Positions 4,861 to 14,492 of a stretch of DNA of 25,403 nucleotides are shown one piece after another. The notes under the pieces were generated by a model that had not been told where the DNA came from, did no database searches, and worked only from the letters and a program-made list of their open reading frames with translations. The DNA comes from a virus. The stretch is taken from IMG/VR virus record IMGVR_UViG_3300041586_000070, positions 1-25,403 of that record; one strand, 5' to 3'. Each line of letters opens with the position of its first letter. Within the stretch, counting starts at the first letter, position 1. Both the position numbers and the translations under genes were made by a program.

Positions 4861-7160
4861 GCCCCACCCCAATTGCTGCCGTATTCAAAGCCAAATCCGC
4901 CATAGTTGCGTTCAAAGCGATGACTATGCGATTGGTACGAATCCACACCGTCGCGCACTGCCAAAAGCTCAATCGTCAAATGCGTCTGCATACCGCCACA
5001 GTCGGCTAGCTCATCTTCAATGGGGTATGTATAACTTGTGCCAGTCAGGTCGGTCACACTGCGACATAGCACGCTATCTTGGTCATAGATGCGGATGGTG
5101 TAGGTCAGATCAGGCTCAGGCGTGACGCTGGATTCATCCTGTGCGAGTAAATAAACAGTCTGCTGTAGTCGATTGCGATGCGCCCACGACACAGAGACAG
5201 CACGATCAACCTCGGCAGGTAAGTAGTCGCTGTTTAATCTAAAAAATGCTGGTGGATAGGGCTTGTTATGCCGGGCCACAATCTCGACGCTATCAATCGG
5301 TGCATCATCATCAGCAAGCACGTCTGTTGTGGTTGCCGTGATGACTTTGGCATCAACCAAGGCACCATCTGGATAAGCATTAGGATCTAATGCCTCAAAG
5401 CCTTCAGCAAAAAACAATTTGCTGCCAGCCGCATGCGCCTGTGGCACGGTATCAAGCACGCCACGCGCGATGGTCAATAATCCAGTATCTAGGTCAATGT
5501 CATCCAGACGCACATATTCAGTGCCAATGATGGCGTAGTCGCCCTCATCGATCCCGTCAAGGCTGCCAACAATTGATATATTGACAGTGCTAAACTCCTC
5601 GATCACTAAATCGCTTAAAATGGTCGCTACAGCACAGTGTGTGGCAGTATCGACGGCGACAAAATCAGCAATGCCGACGCGAGTTTTTAGTGTGTAATCG
5701 ACGCTTGCAGTAGCATGCTGTTGCGCATAAATCACAGCATAGCCATCGTCAGGCGCAACAAAACTAAGATCTGCCGCAGTTAAGCTGGTTGCTAAATCAT
5801 AGTAAGTAGCCTCTGTAAACAAGCGTGCTGGTGATGGCGCGGGAGGCGCAAGTGGATCTATCCAGCCCGCATTTTGCTGCGCCCCGTAGCTGCTAACTGG
5901 CAAGCCAAATACGTCTTCCGTCGCTTCGACAGTGATCATGCCATTTTCGAGCGTTCCGGTACTGACGGTAATCACGCGCAATACCACGCCAGATAGGCCA
6001 AGCTTCGGCCAGTCCAACACAAGCACGTCACCTTGGAGCAGCTTCCACGCCTGTCGATTCACAGTAAACTTGGCTTTGGCCAGCGGGGATGACCGAGCTA
6101 ATAAATCACGAATCGCCACGCGCTGCGCAATCTGGTTGCTATTGATACCGCTATAGTTGATTTTTTGGCTGACCACCTGCGCCTGTGCTTGGACGTTTGC
6201 CAAGTCATGCACGGTGATCGCGGTTTCTTTGCGTGTATCAGGGTCGGTATACGCGACGGTCAATTCATTGATGGTTTCGCCCCAGCCAGCTCGCTGAAAT
6301 GATTGCAGCTCGCCGATATTGCTGGGATCAAATACCGGCAAATCACCGACCACATAATCAGCACGGATCAGCTTAATTTGATACTTACCAGTTTTAGGAT
6401 CAATGCGCAGCGCACCGCCAATATGGTCAAACACGATCTGGATAAACGCTTGAATCGTGCTTTGCTGATTCCACATCAGGCTCAGGCCAAAACCTTCGTC
6501 ATACAGTGTATCTGCGGCTTCGGCAAAACTGACGGCATCAATAATGGCAGTCGGATACCCCATGCCCCACTCAGTGTCTGTAATGCACTGATAGACAATG
6601 TGCGCAGGATTCATATCGACGCCAATGACGGCTTTTTCTGGGTACCACACTGGCGTATTCCAGCCAGACAACATACGACTGACTAAAACCTGCCAGCCTT
6701 TTAGATATGGATTGTTTGCAGAGATCAAGCCTTTGAACACAATCGCAAAGATGCCGCGAAAAGCAGGGATTAGATCGCCAAGCGCAGCGGTCATTATTGG
6801 GCTGCGGCCTTGCGTAGGCTCGCCCATATTGATTTCAGCGGTACCGCTGATGCCGCCCTCTTTATCATCACCGCCAAAGATGTGCCAAGCGCGGATTGGT
6901 ACGGTCATCGACGACGTGACAGGAACGCCAGCAGAAATATCTGATGTTAATATCTGGGTTTTTTTCAGACGAAATCTGTCCCAGCCACTAACAAGCGGCT
7001 GCTCAGGCGGTTCTGGCGTGTCAACAACGCCGCTCCAGACCGCTCGATCATCCACATCAATCTGACTGACCGCATCGACGGGCCCATGACAAAATCCCAT
7101 ATGAATCGTCAATCCATAGCGATAGCCAACCGTCTGTTTTTTCTTTTTGCCGCTACTCAT
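4857..7160 (-). CDS. Central tail hub / host-specificity protein (gpJ-like)
   Basis: This 767-residue protein is the largest of the tail-tip proteins. It should form the hub that closes the tail tube and carries the fibres. The N-terminal part (about 1-190) has GLTIHMGFCHGPVDAVSQI and the GDDKEGGISGTAEI stretch typical of these hubs. Residues about 200-440 resemble the phage-tail-3 hub domain (NPAHIVYQCITDTEWGMGYP; FDHIGGALRIDPKTGKYQI). The C-terminal part contains beta-sandwich segments resembling fibronectin-type modules, ending near RNYGGFGFEYG. It overlaps the upstream 65-residue gene by 4 nt and the next gene by 4 nt, so translation is coupled. Confidence 0.9.
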   Translation of the reverse strand: MSSGKKKKQTVGYRYGLTIHMGFCHGPVDAVSQIDVDDRAVWSGVVDTPEPPEQPLVSGWDRFRLKKTQILTSDISAGVPVTSSMTVPIRAWHIFGGDDKEGGISGTAEINMGEPTQGRSPIMTAALGDLIPAFRGIFAIVFKGLISANNPYLKGWQVLVSRMLSGWNTPVWYPEKAVIGVDMNPAHIVYQCITDTEWGMGYPTAIIDAVSFAEAADTLYDEGFGLSLMWNQQSTIQAFIQIVFDHIGGALRIDPKTGKYQIKLIRADYVVGDLPVFDPSNIGELQSFQRAGWGETINELTVAYTDPDTRKETAITVHDLANVQAQAQVVSQKINYSGINSNQIAQRVAIRDLLARSSPLAKAKFTVNRQAWKLLQGDVLVLDWPKLGLSGVVLRVITVSTGTLENGMITVEATEDVFGLPVSSYGAQQNAGWIDPLAPPAPSPARLFTEATYYDLATSLTAADLSFVAPDDGYAVIYAQQHATASVDYTLKTRVGIADFVAVDTATHCAVATILSDLVIEEFSTVNISIVGSLDGIDEGDYAIIGTEYVRLDDIDLDTGLLTIARGVLDTVPQAHAAGSKLFFAEGFEALDPNAYPDGALVDAKVITATTTDVLADDDAPIDSVEIVARHNKPYPPAFFRLNSDYLPAEVDRAVSVSWAHRNRLQQTVYLLAQDESSVTPEPDLTYTIRIYDQDSVLCRSVTDLTGTSYTYPIEDELADCGGMQTHLTIELLAVRDGVDSYQSHSHRFERNYGGFGFEYGSNWGGA

Positions 7161-7600: not shown

Positions 7601-8395
7601 TTAAAAAATCGACCCGCCAAATGGGTTTTTGGTCGGGATATAGGGCATGCCGCCATAGTTCAGCGTGTTGTTAAATTTGCTGTGGCAAGTACCTAGACTG
7701 TGATCACAACCGGCATAAGCCGTGATCGTGTCGCCAACCTCAAGCGCATACAGCGGCAGATTGACGGTGATCATGTCGCCCGTGTGCTCAGTGATAAAGC
7801 GTCGTTCCGTGCCGAACTCAATAAAACCACCTGCCAAATATCCGGCGGCCAAGCTTCCAAATGCTGTACTGGTGAGCGTGACACCAGCCACTGCTGAGAG
7901 CGTGGACACAACATCAAATAACGACTTATTGACACCACAGGCCGTGCCATACAGCACATGTGGGCATTGCCGCTGATACATGCGGCGCAATCCAACCCGC
8001 TGTAAGCTGCTACTGATTGGCTCGCAGTTGAGAGAGGCGGTCGAACCTGTCCACTCACAATTCAGCACCCGACCCGACCAAATCACCGCACCGTCGCTAT
8101 CACCAGCGTGTACACGATGCACGGTCACCACGATCACATCGTTTGGCGGCATCACCCGAAACAGATCAGCAATCGCAAAATCACGCACCACCGCCAGTTT
8201 GAGATTATTGCGACCCTTCTCAGTGGTAAAGTCGATGCTGCCGCGCTGGATCAACGCGGGCTGCCACAGATAACCGTTGTACAGCTGTGTTGTCTTCGCG
8301 CTGGTAAAGCGCAATAGATTTGCACCCCACACAAACTCATACAGCTCAATTGGTTCGCCAGCCTGCATGCTGGTTTCGCGTAGGTCATACGTCAT
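7601..8395 (-). CDS. DUF2163 (BR0599-type) tail-tip protein, gpL-like
   Basis: This 264-residue protein starts at ATG 8395 behind GGAGGA; a frame 26 residues longer lies within the upstream gene. The N-terminus resembles DUF2163 (ELYEFVWGANLLRFTS). The C-terminal half carries the cysteine pattern of the phage BR0599 family: QCPHVLYGTACGV, AGCDHSLGTCHSKF, then NYGGMPYIPTKNPFGG. In phage lambda the functionally related gpL uses C-terminal cysteines to bind an iron-sulfur cluster, so metal binding here is an inference. It should sit between the tube end and the hub. Confidence 0.88.
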   Translation of the reverse strand: MTYDLRETSMQAGEPIELYEFVWGANLLRFTSAKTTQLYNGYLWQPALIQRGSIDFTTEKGRNNLKLAVVRDFAIADLFRVMPPNDVIVVTVHRVHAGDSDGAVIWSGRVLNCEWTGSTASLNCEPISSSLQRVGLRRMYQRQCPHVLYGTACGVNKSLFDVVSTLSAVAGVTLTSTAFGSLAAGYLAGGFIEFGTERRFITEHTGDMITVNLPLYALEVGDTITAYAGCDHSLGTCHSKFNNTLNYGGMPYIPTKNPFGGSIF

Positions 8396-9554
8396 CGTTG
8401 GTTGTCCTCCAATTTGCCCGCACGTCGACGTAATCGCCCCATGACCACGCCAACTCGATGGCATCAGCATCAAGGCGGCAATAACTCATTAGGCTGATAC
8501 GTTCAATGTCATCTGGCAGGACGGCGATGCCTAATGCTGCATCAAGCGTGAGCTGCTCGGTTTGTGCGTCAATGACGCTGGAGGCGGTAATGCGACGGTA
8601 AAGGACTAGGCCGCTGGATAGCTCGATGCGCAGATCACGGCGGTTCTTGTCGATTTGGTACAGATCGGTATAGCCGTGATTTCCGATATTGATCTGTAGA
8701 CTGATAGCAGCGACAGGCGTCACTAAGTCAAAGTCATTTAAAAATGAGGGTAGCCAAATGCACTTATAGCGACCACGCTGCGCATACAACCAACCACGAA
8801 ATGCACTGATTTGCGCACGACTGGCCAACACCCAATGATGCGATTGCAACAAGACGGGCTGTCCTGTTTCGTCGTCGCGGTACATGCCACCAATTTGAAA
8901 ATCAACCACCGACATTTTGCGCTGATAATCGACAGTGATGTCGTCCATCCAGTTGCTGGGAATGAGCAGCACTGGCTCACTGCGGTACAGCACGTCTGGT
9001 ATGGCGGCTGGATACTCGCTCACGTCATCCAACATGAAGCGTGCGACGTTGTAAACGGCATCGCCTGTAAAGCGAGTCACCTGCTGCTGCGGTTCGAGAT
9101 ACGCAGTGCGCAACGGCACAATGGTTGTTTCGATTGGCCAACTGCCAACGATGGGCGCAGCAATGCCGATCTGATCGGCTGACACACTGACAATATCGAC
9201 CACCACACGCCGCTCGCCGTCGATCAAGATCGCCTGACCACCAGTGACAAAATCACGATATTCAGCATCCAGCGGGATGACGGTTGCGCCACTGCTGATC
9301 GCTGCTGTTATCGGCGTTGCATCCGTCCAAATCGGCAATTGCCACGGCTTTGCACCGTGTGACCACAACGCGGCTTCAAAGGCACGACGGGCGTGTGCGC
9401 CATCAATCAAATAGCCAAATTCAAGCCAGCGGCGCGGACTCTGTCGCAAAGCTGCGCGCTGCTCCGCACCGTTGTAGGCCAGCAGCACGTCTGTCTTAAA
9501 TTCTAGGCGTTCGATGATTGGGGTTGACCAATCGGCGGGTGTTGTCCAAAGCAT
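8385..9554 (-). CDS. Tail-tip protein upstream of DUF2163, distal tail candidate
   Basis: This 389-residue protein opens tail unit D. It is mostly beta-rich with scattered tryptophans (WTTPADW, WLEFGYL, WSHGAKPWQLPIWTD at about 88-102). A second part, SQHHW-like at about 240 and YAQRGRYKCIWLPSFLND at about 255-272, recalls distal-tail or tube-adaptor proteins of siphophages with Mu-type heads. The ATG at 9554 follows a GAGGG ribosome site that is partly inside a terminator hairpin. The gene overlaps DUF2163 by 11 nt. A distal-tail role rests on position after the tape measure and before the DUF2163 protein. Confidence 0.75.
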   Translation of the reverse strand: MLWTTPADWSTPIIERLEFKTDVLLAYNGAEQRAALRQSPRRWLEFGYLIDGAHARRAFEAALWSHGAKPWQLPIWTDATPITAAISSGATVIPLDAEYRDFVTGGQAILIDGERRVVVDIVSVSADQIGIAAPIVGSWPIETTIVPLRTAYLEPQQQVTRFTGDAVYNVARFMLDDVSEYPAAIPDVLYRSEPVLLIPSNWMDDITVDYQRKMSVVDFQIGGMYRDDETGQPVLLQSHHWVLASRAQISAFRGWLYAQRGRYKCIWLPSFLNDFDLVTPVAAISLQINIGNHGYTDLYQIDKNRRDLRIELSSGLVLYRRITASSVIDAQTEQLTLDAALGIAVLPDDIERISLMSYCRLDADAIELAWSWGDYVDVRANWRTTNDDV

Positions 9555-9580
9555 AAAAATAGCCCTCGATTAGGGCTATT
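9555..9580 (-). terminator. Terminator hairpin directly before the tail-tip gene
   Basis: AATAGCCCT (9558-9566) and AGGGCTATT (9572-9580) form a perfect 9-bp stem with a 5-nt loop. On the minus strand the stem runs into five T just before the ATG at 9554. It would stop transcripts arriving from the CRISPR-like array, and would hide the GAGGG ribosome site in any read-through RNA. RNA starting from the promoter at 9578-9616 would begin inside the loop and escape the hairpin. Confidence 0.65.
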
Positions 9581-9616: not shown

Positions 9617-9704
9617 TTTCTAAGCCGCCTATGTGGCGGGCAACGAAAGCATCGAAAGCGTATTCACCACCACAGGTTTCTAAGCCGCCTATGTGGCGGG
9701 CAAC
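9617..9704 (-). CRISPR. Mini CRISPR array: two type I-F-like repeats, one 32-nt spacer
   Basis: Two identical 28-nt repeats lie at 9617-9644 and 9677-9704, separated by a 32-nt spacer (9645-9676). These are the lengths of type I-F arrays. In crRNA sense (minus strand) each repeat begins GTTGCCCGCC and ends GGCGGCTTAGAAA. The stem CCGCC/GGCGG with loop ACATA keeps the I-F hairpin, while the usual CTGCC/GGCAG pair has changed on both sides, and the 3' end CTTAGAAA matches the 8-nt I-F crRNA handle. No cas gene is in the window, so processing would need the host Cas6f. Orientation matches late transcription. I found no match to the spacer elsewhere in the window by eye. Confidence 0.85.
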
Positions 9705-9800
9705 AGCAACAGAATAGCACAATGCCTCATTAAATCAATATTTTGAAAACGCAAAACCCGCAAAACCAAAGTTTTGCAGGCGACAAACCAACCAACAGAC
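9705..9800 (-). other. Leader-side intergenic region of the mini-array
   Basis: No gene is seen. Read on the minus strand this is upstream of the first repeat and is AT-rich near 9725-9750 (CAAAATATTGATTTAAT), as CRISPR leaders often are. It contains a perfect hairpin, GCAAAAC/GTTTTGC with a 4-nt loop (9760-9777), followed on the minus strand by a T-rich stretch (GGGTTTTGCGTTTTC), which could be a weak terminator. No convincing minus-strand promoter was found, so the array may depend on read-through from the tape-measure transcript. Confidence 0.4.
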
Positions 9801-9830
9801 TGTTGACAAATGTCAACAAGTGGCAATAAT
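9801..9830 (+). promoter_or_regulatory. Promoter with palindromic operator for the island genes
   Basis: TGTTGACAAATGTCAACA (9801-9818) is a perfect 8+2+8 palindrome. It contains a consensus -35 TTGACA (9803-9808), followed after 16 nt by -10 AATAAT (9825-9830). A repressor on the palindrome would block polymerase, so the downstream HTH protein is a natural candidate autoregulator. This is the best sigma70-type promoter in the window and points into the plus-strand cassette. Confidence 0.8.
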
Positions 9831-9855
9831 AGCGATATCCATGCAGGAATTGGCT

Positions 9856-10086
9856 ATGAAAAAACACCCCAACAAGCACATTAGGGACGCGATTGCGTAT
9901 GCAGAGGCTAATGGTTGGGATGTGATTGAGACGGGCAAGTCCGCTCATGCGTTTTGTCGGTTGTACTGTAGGGCTGGTCATGCTGAACATATGATGAGCA
10001 TCTGGAGTACCCCACGCAACCCAGAAAATCACGCAAAGCAAATTCTGCACAAAGTCAGTCAATGTAACGGGGAGCAGGACGAATGA
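9856..10086 (+). CDS. HicA-like small protein (toxin or anti-defence candidate)
   Basis: This 76-residue protein starts at ATG 9856 behind AGGA; upstream ATG/GTG codons lack ribosome sites. Residues 6-38 (NKHIRDAIAYAEANGWDVIE then SAHAFCRL) resemble the small HicA-like double-stranded-RNA-binding fold: a helix, a strand and a histidine (H31) where HicA has its catalytic one. The C-terminal part, SIWSTPRNPENHAKQI (48-63), matches a conserved signature of a family of uncharacterised proteins that travel with a partner resembling the next gene. The stop overlaps the next start (ATGA). The gene faces against the tail operon, which marks it as a moron. A toxin role is inference; an anti-CRISPR or other anti-defence role is also possible. 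Confidence 0.7.
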   Translation: MKKHPNKHIRDAIAYAEANGWDVIETGKSAHAFCRLYCRAGHAEHMMSIWSTPRNPENHAKQILHKVSQCNGEQDE

Positions 10087-10556
10087 AGACTTATCATTTT
10101 ACGATTGTTGTTCGTGATGCACAGATCGGCATGACAGATTTGGAAGATCGGCTATTTGAAGCGGGTTGTGACGATGCGCTGCTATGTAGCTACAATCAGA
10201 CCGTGTATCTGGAGTTTGATCGTGAGGCAATCAACGCAGAACAGGCCATTAAAACAGCCCTAGCTGATATTAAGGCAGCAGGATTTAGGCAGCCTGTGGT
10301 GCAGGAAGCAGGAGTATCCACATTGTCTGAAATGGCAGATCGTGCAGGCATTACTCGTGCAGCTTTTTCATTATATGCTAGGAATAAACGCGGTGATGGT
10401 CACTTCCCCTCACCAGTTTACGGCGTTGCCTCTGGTTCGGCATTGTATTCATGGCCAGAGGTCTCTGAATGGCTGTACAAGCAAGGTAAGCTTGCCAAAG
10501 AACAGTATGACATTGCGCATGTGGCTTTGGGGTCATCTGAGCAACTGTCGAACTGA
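10083..10556 (+). CDS. Winged-HTH partner protein (antitoxin or aca-like regulator)
   Basis: This 157-residue protein has two parts. Residues 1-70 (HFTIVVRDAQ, LEDRLFEAGCDDALL, YLEFDREAINAEQAIKTAL) form the alpha/beta partner domain that accompanies HicA-like STPRNPENHA proteins. Residues about 79-131 are a winged helix-turn-helix (STLSEMADRAGITRAAFSLY, then a wing and SWPEVSEWL). It is translationally coupled to the small protein before it and probably represses the palindromic promoter upstream, as antitoxins and anti-CRISPR-associated regulators do. Its last 24 nt overlap the 3' end of the tape-measure gene on the other strand, so the two transcripts are antisense there. Confidence 0.75.
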   Translation: MKTYHFTIVVRDAQIGMTDLEDRLFEAGCDDALLCSYNQTVYLEFDREAINAEQAIKTALADIKAAGFRQPVVQEAGVSTLSEMADRAGITRAAFSLYARNKRGDGHFPSPVYGVASGSALYSWPEVSEWLYKQGKLAKEQYDIAHVALGSSEQLSN

Positions 10557-13500
10557 TCCAGCATTGCGTTCAATCATATTCAAAATCACCCGCTCACCTG
10601 ATGCACTGGACATATAGTCTTGCACCAGATTCGGATCAATCACGTTGACGATACGGGTTGAGCCGCCGCTGCCACCGCCGTTGGCGACGTGGCGTGGATC
10701 GTTGCGGGTCAGCACTTCCTCACCCGCCTGTAAGACGGCAGGCACTTCACCCGGCTTCATGCCTGCAATACCGCCGACGTGATAGCGTGGCGCGTGGGTA
10801 AACATCGACATATTATACGACTTCTTCGCGCCTGCACCGCCCGCGATGCCGCCACCATGAAACAGACCAGCCAAAACACCTCCGATCCCATCGCCTTTTT
10901 TTGCATTTTTCCCAGCCTTGCCGATACTGCCGCCACCGCCACCGCCACCCGCACTCGCCGCACCGCCAGTCAGCGCATTTAGCAGCATAAAAATCGCAAT
11001 CTTGGCCAGTGCCTGTGCTGCCATTTGTGCTAGTGACTTGACGAAGCTTTTGGCAAAGTCCTTAATCGCGTCACTAGCGGACTTACTCCCTTCGACCAGA
11101 TCCATAAAAAACGTCGATAAGCCAGACTCACCTGCACTGATCGAGGTTTCAGCAAGGTTGGCATAAAATTCCCCCATCTGATCTTGCAGGGCGGGAATAG
11201 TAAGCTGTAGGTTGGCGATTTTGGTTTCGAGGTCGGTGATCGGTGCGGATAGATTGGCCGCGCCATTTGCCTCAAGCTGTTGCAGTTCGGCCAGTTGCGC
11301 TTTGAGGTTGGTCAATGCCGCCAGCCGCGCCTGCTCTTTGTCGCGCTCGAGTGTCAGTGTGCCGCGTCCGCTCGATTTGGCATCCCGCTCCAGTATGCCC
11401 TCAGCGTTCGCCAGATTATCGAATTCAGTCTGTGCTTGCTTCTGGATGTCAGCGGCTTTGGCGGCCAGCTTCTGCTTCATGATGATTTCAAGCGTGATCT
11501 GTATCTGCGTCTGATCGGCTTCTTTTTGTAGGTTGTGCAGGGTTTCCGCCCACTTGTTGTCGATCTCAAGCAGCGATGCTTCCAGCTCATCGCCTTTTAA
11601 GCGCAGCAGCTCGACGCTCAGTTCGTTTTGCTGTTGCACCTGTTTGCGTGACAGCTCATCGAGGGCTTGCTCCTCTTCCCTTTGGTTAATCTCTAACAAC
11701 TGGCGTTTTTCGCTGATACTGTAGTCTTTGTTCAGCTCGATCTGTTCGCGCTCACGCTCAAACTTCCATTGCATAATCTGGGCTTCTGAGCGTTCGGCGT
11801 GTAGCAAGGCACTGGCGCGACTGGCAATCTCTAACGCGCGTTTTTTCCCCTCGGCGGTCAGGTTGTCCAGCTTTTGCAGATGGTTTTTTTGCTCCTCTGC
11901 ATATTGGCTTTTCAGTAAATCCAGCTCAGTCTGCTGAGTCTTTTTAGTGTTGATGATGTCGGTATTAATTTCGCCGCGCTTGGTCGGATCGGTTTCTTTG
12001 GACAAATCACGCTGTAGCATCTTGATTTCGATGTTATGCAGTTGTTGCAAAAGCGCCCGTTTGCGGTTGTACCACTCGGTCAGGCTTACACCCTCCTTCT
12101 GTTTTTTATCTTCGAGTAGCTTGAGTGCTTCTTCGGCATCTGTTTTTGCCATTGACAGTGCGTCATTTGGTGCATCAGGCTTGGGTTTTGTGCGGACAGT
12201 GCCTAGCGGCTTATTTGCAGGCTCGACCAAGCTTTTATATTCTGTGGTTTCTTTAAGAATGCCTTCAAGGTCATCAATCTTGCCGATAGACTCCGCCAAT
12301 GTACTCACGGTGCCATCAAAAAAACCTCCTGATCTAACCTCGATTTTATTTAGACCTGCGTCGATTTTGTTGATTTCTTGCAGTAATTCGGATGCACTCA
12401 AACGGCCAGACTCAAACTCGCCTGCCAACTTTTGCAATTGAGATGCTTTATTTCGATCTTGAGGCGATGCAAGTGCGGCTTGGCGCGGACTCGTGCCGAT
12501 AAGGCCACGCGCCTCTTTACGCAACTGAGCAGAGATATCTTTGCGCTGTTGCTCAATCGCACTTTTTTCCGCTGTGATCTTCTGATCAATCTGTGCTTTA
12601 TGTGCATTGCGCTGCGCCTCGGTCATCGCATTTAGTTTTTTGGTCACCTCCTCAGCGGTCGTGCCGATTTTTTCCAACTCTGTCGCCGCCGAGCTTGCAT
12701 TATCACCCATGGTCAAAAAGCCAGCCGCAAGCAGGCCGACGGTTAAAATCAAGCCAACAGGGCCACTCAGCACTGCCAGTAAGCCACGACCTGCCAGTGC
12801 TGCCCGACTGGTTGCCGCTGCTGCTGCCGCCTCACTGGCTGCCAGTTTTTTGGTGGTGGCGTCCAATGCCGCACGCGTGCGGGTTAAATTCGCCTCCGCT
12901 GCGGCTAATTGCGCGACGGTCACCGCACTCAGTTTGGCCGCCTCTGCCCGCTGTAAGTCAGCCAAGGCCAAGGCCTGCGCACCCCGTGCCGCTTGCAAAT
13001 CCGCTTGAGTCGCCGCAATCGTCGCATTCCGATCAGCAATCAGTGCCGCAATCTTCGCGCGGATGGCAAATATGGTTTTGGCGATAGCAACGCCTAACAG
13101 CGTCAGGCCAGTTGATGCGCCAATCGCCGCCACATAGGCCAGCACCTCGGAAAGGTTTGCGCGCAGTGACTCAATCCCACCAATCACCGCTGCCGAAAGA
13201 CCAAAGCCCCGATCAAACTCAGCCACCACATCATTAAAGTCGCGTTTGAGCGCGGTCATCGCTTGCGCCGACGTGCGCGGCATCTTGTTATACTGTTCGT
13301 CAGCTGTAGCGCCCATCTTCAGCAATGAGTTAATCATCAGCTCAGTGGTAATCTTCTGATCATGCGATGCCTTAGTAAATTCACCAATGGTCATCCCCAT
13401 GCCTTTTGCCATCGCAGCGGCGAGTGGCAAAGCACCCTCCATGATCGAGACAAACTCATCACCGTTTAGCTTACCTTTGCCCAATGCCTGACTAAACTGA

Positions 13501-14492
13501 AAAATAGCAGCATTAGCGGTTGCGGTCGGCGCACCACCAATAGCGACAAACTTATTTGTAATATCCGTCATCCGAAGCAGCATGTCATCTGATGCGCCAG
13601 TTAGCTCACTGGTAGACAGCTTCAATTTTGAGTACAACGCGATTGAGCCACCCAGCTCCGTACCCGTAAAGTTAGCGCTTTGGGTGAGTCTACGCTGCAC
13701 ATCGATCAGCTGTTCTTGCGTATCGGTCACCAAGGCAAGCTGACCCTGAAAATTCTTGGCCTCATCGGTGATCTGCATAAACATGCGGATACCCAGCATG
13801 CCGCCGATACTTGCAATCAGCCCACGCACCTGACTGGCCATGCCCGAAAACGCAGCTGAACCTTGATTCGCCTCGGTGCGGGTGCGTGCCATTTGTGCTT
13901 GTAGCTCACGCACCTGACGCTCTAGCGCATCGACTTGCGCGGCCGTCGCCGTTGAGCTACTGCCCAGCCCACCTAGTGAGCCACGCAATAAGCCGATTTC
14001 AGCTTTGAGTTGCTTGATGACTTTCTCGAGGCTTTTGAGTGTAGCTTCCATCGTGCCCATGTTGACATTGATATTCACTGCACCCGCAGGCAATGCGCCC
14101 ACACTGGCAATCATCGCGGCAATCATGGCACGGGCACTGGCAAGATCAGCTTGTAATTTTGGCAGGTCAACCCGTACCCGTACTGTTCCGCTTGCGGCTG
14201 CCAATGCCGCCGTAATCTGTGGACGGATTGCCGCCAAATCCGCAGCAATCGTGGCCGCATTGACCTTGACTTTAACCTTAACGGTCTCAGTGGCCGCGCC
14301 GCCCAACTGATTACGAATCTGAGCTTTGGCGCTGGCAATCTCAGTCTGTAACTTTGATCGATCAATTTTAAGATCAAACTTCATCGCCTTCACGTCAGTG
14401 ATCAGGCTGTTAAAGTCTTTACGCACCTGCTTAAGACCGTTGCGGATCTCCGCAAGATCAGCATTGATCTTAAAACCCAGTGCCATGCTCAT
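10533..14492 (-). CDS. Tail tape measure protein
   Basis: This 1319-residue protein sets tail length and is ejected with the DNA. Residues about 45-145 hold three imperfect repeats of roughly 35 residues, each a basic beta strand followed by a helix (DRSKLQTEIASAKAQIR, ATIAADLAAIRPQI, PKLQADLASARAMIA). Residues about 240-425 match the conserved tape-measure domain (TIGR02675 type: NFTGTELGGSIALYSKL, GDEFVSIMEGALP). Hydrophobic segments lie at 447-477 and 569-593, with long coiled-coil stretches on either side. The C-terminus is glycine-rich before NGGGSGGSTRI. Ribosome site AAGGAG; the ATG overlaps the stop of the frameshifted chaperone frame (TGATG). At about 0.15 nm per residue the tail would be near 200 nm. 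Confidence 0.95.
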   Translation of the reverse strand: MSMALGFKINADLAEIRNGLKQVRKDFNSLITDVKAMKFDLKIDRSKLQTEIASAKAQIRNQLGGAATETVKVKVKVNAATIAADLAAIRPQITAALAAASGTVRVRVDLPKLQADLASARAMIAAMIASVGALPAGAVNINVNMGTMEATLKSLEKVIKQLKAEIGLLRGSLGGLGSSSTATAAQVDALERQVRELQAQMARTRTEANQGSAAFSGMASQVRGLIASIGGMLGIRMFMQITDEAKNFQGQLALVTDTQEQLIDVQRRLTQSANFTGTELGGSIALYSKLKLSTSELTGASDDMLLRMTDITNKFVAIGGAPTATANAAIFQFSQALGKGKLNGDEFVSIMEGALPLAAAMAKGMGMTIGEFTKASHDQKITTELMINSLLKMGATADEQYNKMPRTSAQAMTALKRDFNDVVAEFDRGFGLSAAVIGGIESLRANLSEVLAYVAAIGASTGLTLLGVAIAKTIFAIRAKIAALIADRNATIAATQADLQAARGAQALALADLQRAEAAKLSAVTVAQLAAAEANLTRTRAALDATTKKLAASEAAAAAATSRAALAGRGLLAVLSGPVGLILTVGLLAAGFLTMGDNASSAATELEKIGTTAEEVTKKLNAMTEAQRNAHKAQIDQKITAEKSAIEQQRKDISAQLRKEARGLIGTSPRQAALASPQDRNKASQLQKLAGEFESGRLSASELLQEINKIDAGLNKIEVRSGGFFDGTVSTLAESIGKIDDLEGILKETTEYKSLVEPANKPLGTVRTKPKPDAPNDALSMAKTDAEEALKLLEDKKQKEGVSLTEWYNRKRALLQQLHNIEIKMLQRDLSKETDPTKRGEINTDIINTKKTQQTELDLLKSQYAEEQKNHLQKLDNLTAEGKKRALEIASRASALLHAERSEAQIMQWKFEREREQIELNKDYSISEKRQLLEINQREEEQALDELSRKQVQQQNELSVELLRLKGDELEASLLEIDNKWAETLHNLQKEADQTQIQITLEIIMKQKLAAKAADIQKQAQTEFDNLANAEGILERDAKSSGRGTLTLERDKEQARLAALTNLKAQLAELQQLEANGAANLSAPITDLETKIANLQLTIPALQDQMGEFYANLAETSISAGESGLSTFFMDLVEGSKSASDAIKDFAKSFVKSLAQMAAQALAKIAIFMLLNALTGGAASAGGGGGGGSIGKAGKNAKKGDGIGGVLAGLFHGGGIAGGAGAKKSYNMSMFTHAPRYHVGGIAGMKPGEVPAVLQAGEEVLTRNDPRHVANGGGSGGSTRIVNVIDPNLVQDYMSSASGERVILNMIERNAGSVRQLLR

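Follow-up and report, generated by a model that had tools for sequence, protein, structure and literature searches.

The window analyzed here, 25,403 nucleotides (25.4 kb) in all, is an IMG/VR record for which the host is not given. It belongs to a temperate Mu/B3-type phage, with a Mu-type portal, an F-like head protein, an endolysin and a tyrosine integrase, and with tail genes approximately 36% identical to those of B3/JBD67-like Pseudomonas phages. Between its tape-measure gene and the gene for a 389-aa tail-assembly protein there lies a short non-coding unit of two 28-nt repeats and one spacer (positions 9617–9704), and adjoining this unit, in divergent orientation, is a pair of small genes matching the PADLOC family PDC-M06 (Table 1).

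The accessory slot and its predicted transcription

The tape-measure/tail-assembly junction is, from the comparison of related genomes, an accessory (variable) slot in the lineage of this phage, because the relatives carry different content there. In L135, the nearest relative that we found (53% identity in the large tail protein), an unrelated 216-aa gene (5876–6526, phrog_17297) replaces the array and the PDC-M06 genes at the same junction, in most other relatives the stretch there is longer, and in the annotated B3-type phage PM105 the junction is occupied by further tail-region genes. The PDC-M06A and PDC-M06B matches of the window had E-values of 1.5e-20 and 4.7e-22, respectively, and the two genes lie side by side, making them a candidate defense pair by profile, whereas phage databases label the PDC-M06B protein an excisionase/AlpA- or HicB-like regulator.

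The array looks like a separate small-RNA unit, with a predicted RNA of ~155 nt, since a promoter-like site precedes its first repeat and a terminator-like hairpin trails its second. This candidate promoter is weak by consensus: it scores 9, a value reached by 2% of 2000 random positions, and a simple, stricter promoter scan leaves it out as below its threshold. The second hairpin, which precedes the candidate promoter, could shield the unit against transcripts of the tape-measure operon, and the promoter-like site of the PDC-M06 pair, 100 bp distant, is divergent from the array. A sequence-only reading had placed the unit inside a late tail operon; this position is right, but what the unit occupies there is an accessory slot, and on its own strand it has a terminator-like hairpin on each side.

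Table 1. Positions of the array, its predicted signals and neighboring genes in the window, and of spacer matches within the contigs of other arrays.
Feature	Record	Positions	Strand	Basis
Tail-assembly protein, 389 aa, phrog_1082, slot border	window	8385–9554	-	protein profile match
Terminator-like hairpin AATAGCCCTAATCGAGGGCTATT then TTTATG, just before the tail gene's ATG	window	9558–9580	-	sequence scan
Second I-F repeat, same sequence as first	window	9617–9644	-	repeat comparison, CRISPR-DR4 match
Spacer, 32 nt, CCTGTGGTGGTGAATACGCTTTCGATGCTTTC	window	9645–9676	-	position between repeats
First (promoter-proximal) I-F repeat, GTTGCCCGCCACATAGGCGGCTTAGAAA	window	9677–9704	-	repeat comparison, CRISPR-DR4 match
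Candidate promoter TTGATT-16 nt-TATTCT, extended -10 (TGC), 6 nt before first repeat	window	9711–9738	-	sequence scan
Terminator-like hairpin upstream of candidate promoter	window	9756–9781	-	sequence scan
Promoter-like site TTGACA-16-AATAAT (11/12), palindrome TTGACAAATGTCAA, upstream of PDC-M06 pair	window	9803–9830	+	scan
PADLOC PDC-M06A / phrog_5923, 88 aa, candidate defense	window	9820–10086	+	profile match
PADLOC PDC-M06B / phrog_2620, 157 aa, HicB/AlpA-like regulator	window	10083–10556	+	profile match
Tape-measure protein, other slot border	window	10533–14492	-	protein profile match
Own-contig spacer matches	L036	3007–3038, 3401–3432		
Own-contig spacer match	L035	1595–1626		
Own-contig spacer match	L023	4838–4869		
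Own-contig spacer match	L016	4298–4329		
Own-contig spacer match	L013	5443–5474		

A type I-F mini-array and its cellular relatives

The repeats are identical at 28/28 positions and the spacer is exactly 32 nt, just as had been described from the sequence alone. The unit is the sole exact direct repeat of at least 15 nt within 200 bp in the window; when the window was simulated 200 times with a first-order Markov model, any such direct repeat turned up in 1 simulation. The Rfam model for the type I-F repeat, CRISPR-DR4, matched both repeats on the minus strand across all 28 positions, with 31.2 bits (E 1.2e-4), slightly below its gathering score of 35 bits. The earlier observation of a co-changed stem was borne out as well: the repeat, which is of the GTTGCCCGCC type, carries the conserved CUUAGAAA handle and a 5-bp stem, CCGCC/GGCGG, that differs from the consensus CUGCC/GGCAG by one compensatory pair (U-A to C-G). 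RNAfold predicted a hairpin for the single repeat, but with the optimal structure in a slightly shifted register. The unit has what is expected of type I-F, i.e., a 28-nt repeat, this handle, a 5-bp stem and a 32-nt spacer, and also what is expected of a mini-array, i.e., CRISPR repeats that enclose one or two spacers, a viral genome as carrier, and a repeat corresponding to a cellular CRISPR type (CRISPR-DR4, and a cellular repeat identical at 25/28 positions).

No match to Cas6f, and no cas-like protein among those scanned, was found in the 25.4-kb record, which is possibly a fragment; the description of a type I-F array without cas genes in a phage was supported. A protein-coding reading of the unit was dropped, as no open reading frame of at least 60 aa spans it in the window, and the unit is unlikely to be a host array joined on during assembly, because phage sequence flanks the unit and the gene order and slot position are the same in L135. 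By its anatomy, the unit is a real and well-formed phage-borne type I-F mini-CRISPR array.

Comparison with cellular I-F repeats, in line with the proposal to compare the repeat with those of candidate hosts, produced a related repeat in G648, where a chromosome contig contains a type I-F array of 12 repeats with a 60-nt period and mostly 32-nt spacers; its 28-nt repeat starts with GTTGC, is identical to that of the window at 25/28 positions and has the stem ACGCC/GGCGT. The existence of this array shows that GTTGC-type repeats are real cellular I-F-like repeats. No exact copy of the window repeat was present in the genome contigs or the ~800 sampled genomes, and the G648 spacers matched nothing in the window beyond chance. 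Another genome, G339, has a repeat three mismatches away, and was set aside as an orphan repeat pair beside a glgA-like gene with no Cas6f. An orphan pair of I-F-like repeats separated by 33 nt, next to a glgA-like gene and in a genome lacking Cas6f, is at L215 (1441–1528). Assignment of a host via the phage proteins was also abandoned, the nearest relatives being just 43–53% identical.

That the closest cellular repeat differs at 3/28 positions, and that the spacer has no known target, would suit a relic, in which a fragment of a host array was caught by recombination and is now functionless or awaiting loss. We consider such an origin quite improbable, given that the repeats are identical, their spacing is exact, the unit is bracketed by a predicted promoter and a predicted terminator, and the class to which it belongs recurs with the same anatomy.

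Spacer matches in the window and in other phages

The window spacer was searched against phage, plasmid and other collections. Using blastn it had no match in phages, plasmids or Escherichia coli genomes, nor was there one in IMG/VR when every sixth base was a wildcard, or in a back-translated search covering two of its five open frames. Nothing beyond chance was found in 2.4 Mb of related phage loci or in 37 genomes of one family, and within its own genome the best match was 19/32, the chance level. The collections searched include no close relative of the window phage, and they yielded no protospacer with a CC PAM. The origin of the spacer in a homolog of the 389-aa tail gene (PVVVNTLSML versus RVVVDIVSVS) was rejected, as the homologs are unlike it at that position. 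The proposal that the array acts against a competing phage or a host gene therefore gained no support from these searches, and a target of that kind is what we infer rather than a match that was seen.

A further reading is that the array produces a regulatory crRNA, which by partial pairing would direct Cascade to repress a neighboring promoter, e.g., that of the PDC-M06 pair, without cutting. CreTA is the general precedent for a regulatory crRNA, and a divergent promoter 100 bp away with an adjacent candidate defense pair is a setting in which one might operate. A CC PAM with a seed match was found nowhere near, the neighboring promoter included, and in the whole window there are two one-mismatch PAM and seed sites (3707 and 22415), no more than chance; we regard regulation of this type as very improbable.

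Scanning of IMG/VR with a degenerate I-F repeat-spacer-repeat pattern revealed 44 stretches, of which ~29 have one or two spacers; some are at contig ends and may be longer arrays cut off. Cas6f was absent from all 31 records tested, the window included. In several arrays a -10-like box stands just before the repeat, with 20% scoring at least 9 compared with 2% of random positions. Upstream sequence is common within each of two groups of these records, L010, L012, L040 and L048 in one and L024 and L046 in the other. That the arrays at one such shared site have different spacers suggests spacer turnover, in as much as the common upstream sequence marks the sites as apparently the same. Two further viral contigs, L003 (141–168) and L004 (11647–11674), have I-F-like repeats with a GGCGG stem at a spacing other than 60 nt, and these are possibly Racr-like or degenerate units.

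When 35 spacers of the other arrays were compared with their own contigs, six, from five arrays, matched at 25–31 of 32 positions, and ~5/6 of the spacers had no own-contig match. All six matches lie at most ~600 bp from the array, and none has a CC PAM. The matched genes were those for the tape measure and an adjacent second small tail protein (phrog_680), the major tail protein, a neck/tail-completion protein, a baseplate hub/tail lysozyme, and a phrog_286 protein. The closeness of the matches to the arrays had a Fisher p of 3e-4 under uniform placement, a test in which two of the six matches come from one array and L013 is covered over only 12.5 kb. In addition, one spacer of L012 matched the relative L010 at 29/32 positions with a CC PAM present, and another spacer, of L010, matched a gene of an integrative element (90.6%, E 0.1). 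A simple reading would be that the comparison spacers were taken from, and are aimed at, the same genes of relatives, with a changed allele protecting the carrier. The neighbor-gene pattern is not new, having been reported in archaeal viruses and, via a cited survey, in phages, closeness to the array included (PMC6858448). Since nothing matched the window spacer, the pattern of the class is not transferable to it as fact.

A probable borrowed guide and its precedents

What was found directly is the repeat, the spacer length, the non-coding location, the absence of cas6f from the record, an accessory slot and neighbors of a candidate defense family. For expression, processing, host machinery and target, we infer that the array probably provides a crRNA which the type I-F Cas proteins of the host use to exclude related phages. 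The array's own predicted promoter would give a short minus-strand RNA, which host Cas6f would cleave after each repeat hairpin to leave one 60-nt crRNA made up of the 8-nt CUUAGAAA handle, the 32-nt spacer and a 20-nt hairpin. Host Cas5f, Cas7f and Cas8f would then assemble on this crRNA, and Cas2/3 would degrade spacer-matching DNA beside a CC PAM, the likely victim being a related or competing phage, or another mobile element, in the same cell. In this way the array would contribute to superinfection exclusion, together with the PDC-M06 pair beside it.

The main rival is an RNA anti-CRISPR, i.e., a Racr-like decoy whose repeats or target-less crRNA would titrate Cas6f/Cas7f and shield the phage from I-F immunity, and for which the sequence of the spacer would be irrelevant. 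The decoy ranks first among the alternatives, since a non-targeting crRNA by itself reduces interference in a type I-F host, Pectobacterium atrosepticum (PMC10651486). Solitary repeat units are described as having a promoter immediately ahead of the repeat (PMC10651486), as predicted in the window, and a spacer without a target in the collections searched also suits a decoy. Racrs are, however, defined as solitary repeats, whereas the window has two identical repeats 60 nt apart, the exact I-F period. The 5' handle is intact, though RacrIF1 still inhibits with an altered one, and among the comparable arrays some spacers match phage alleles and the spacers at one site change, which a decoy would not need. 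A decoy is unlikely in our estimation. The sequence-only reading had left guide or decoy side by side; the complete repeat-32-repeat anatomy, the candidate defense neighbors and the matches of other arrays' spacers to neighbor-gene alleles favor the guide, but a CC-PAM target for it was not found. The guide is also in line with RacrIF1, from which a working crRNA was obtained by linking it to a repeat and a spacer (PMC10651486). The two roles can coexist.

A more speculative extension of the guide, and one to which we give little credence, is that the mini-array is linked with the neighboring slot genes in one cassette, used in competition inside one phage lineage. The crRNA would cut the same neighborhood in sister phages without the cassette, the adjacent allele of the carrier being changed, so that guide and resistant allele would be co-inherited and could spread via recombinational repair, like a homing element. 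The nearness of the partial matches in the five other phage arrays fits such a cassette.

Mini-arrays without cas genes are already known in phages, and the window adds a good new example, a clean case of phage arrays seemingly borrowing the host's CRISPR machinery. Its place in an accessory slot beside a candidate defense pair suggests a recognizable location in which to look for more. The type I-F phage arrays repeat a published, unexplained trend of spacers that point at genes near the array, and with the gene and allele named for each of five arrays, that trend is now testable.

The precedents offered in the sequence-only reading, mini-arrays of archaeal viruses and solitary repeats acting as RNA anti-CRISPRs, were correct. 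The archaeal portogloboviruses SPV1 and SPV2 carry virus-borne mini-CRISPR arrays (Medvedeva et al. 2019, PMC6858448) that, like that of the window, lack cas genes, contain one or two spacers, lie between genes and have an upstream promoter (predicted in the window), and would share with it the borrowing of host machinery. Their spacers target related viruses in sequences that lie close to the array, with the carrier's copy mutated, for which the parallel is the other phage arrays and not the window. SPV1 and SPV2 differ in that they infect archaea, have true leaders and repeats like those of the host, and have reciprocal targets that are known, whereas the window comes from a phage of bacteria and its repeat is of type I-F. 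Spacers aimed at genes near the array are reported in archaeal viruses (PMC6858448) and, via reference 58 there, in phages. As far as that 2019 survey is described in PMC6858448 and the review PMC11656645, its phage and prophage mini-arrays are cas-less, like that of the window, and leaderless, and some of their spacers are directed at neighboring genes in close viral relatives. The cellular G648 array resembles the window in its GTTGC-start 28-nt repeat and 60-nt period, and differs in its 12 repeats, chromosomal contig and stem. RacrIF1, from a Thiocystis violascens prophage (PMC10651486), is likewise an intergenic I-F repeat mimic with a promoter upstream and a presumed substrate of Cas6f, but is a single repeat without a spacer, whereas the window has the full repeat-spacer-repeat.
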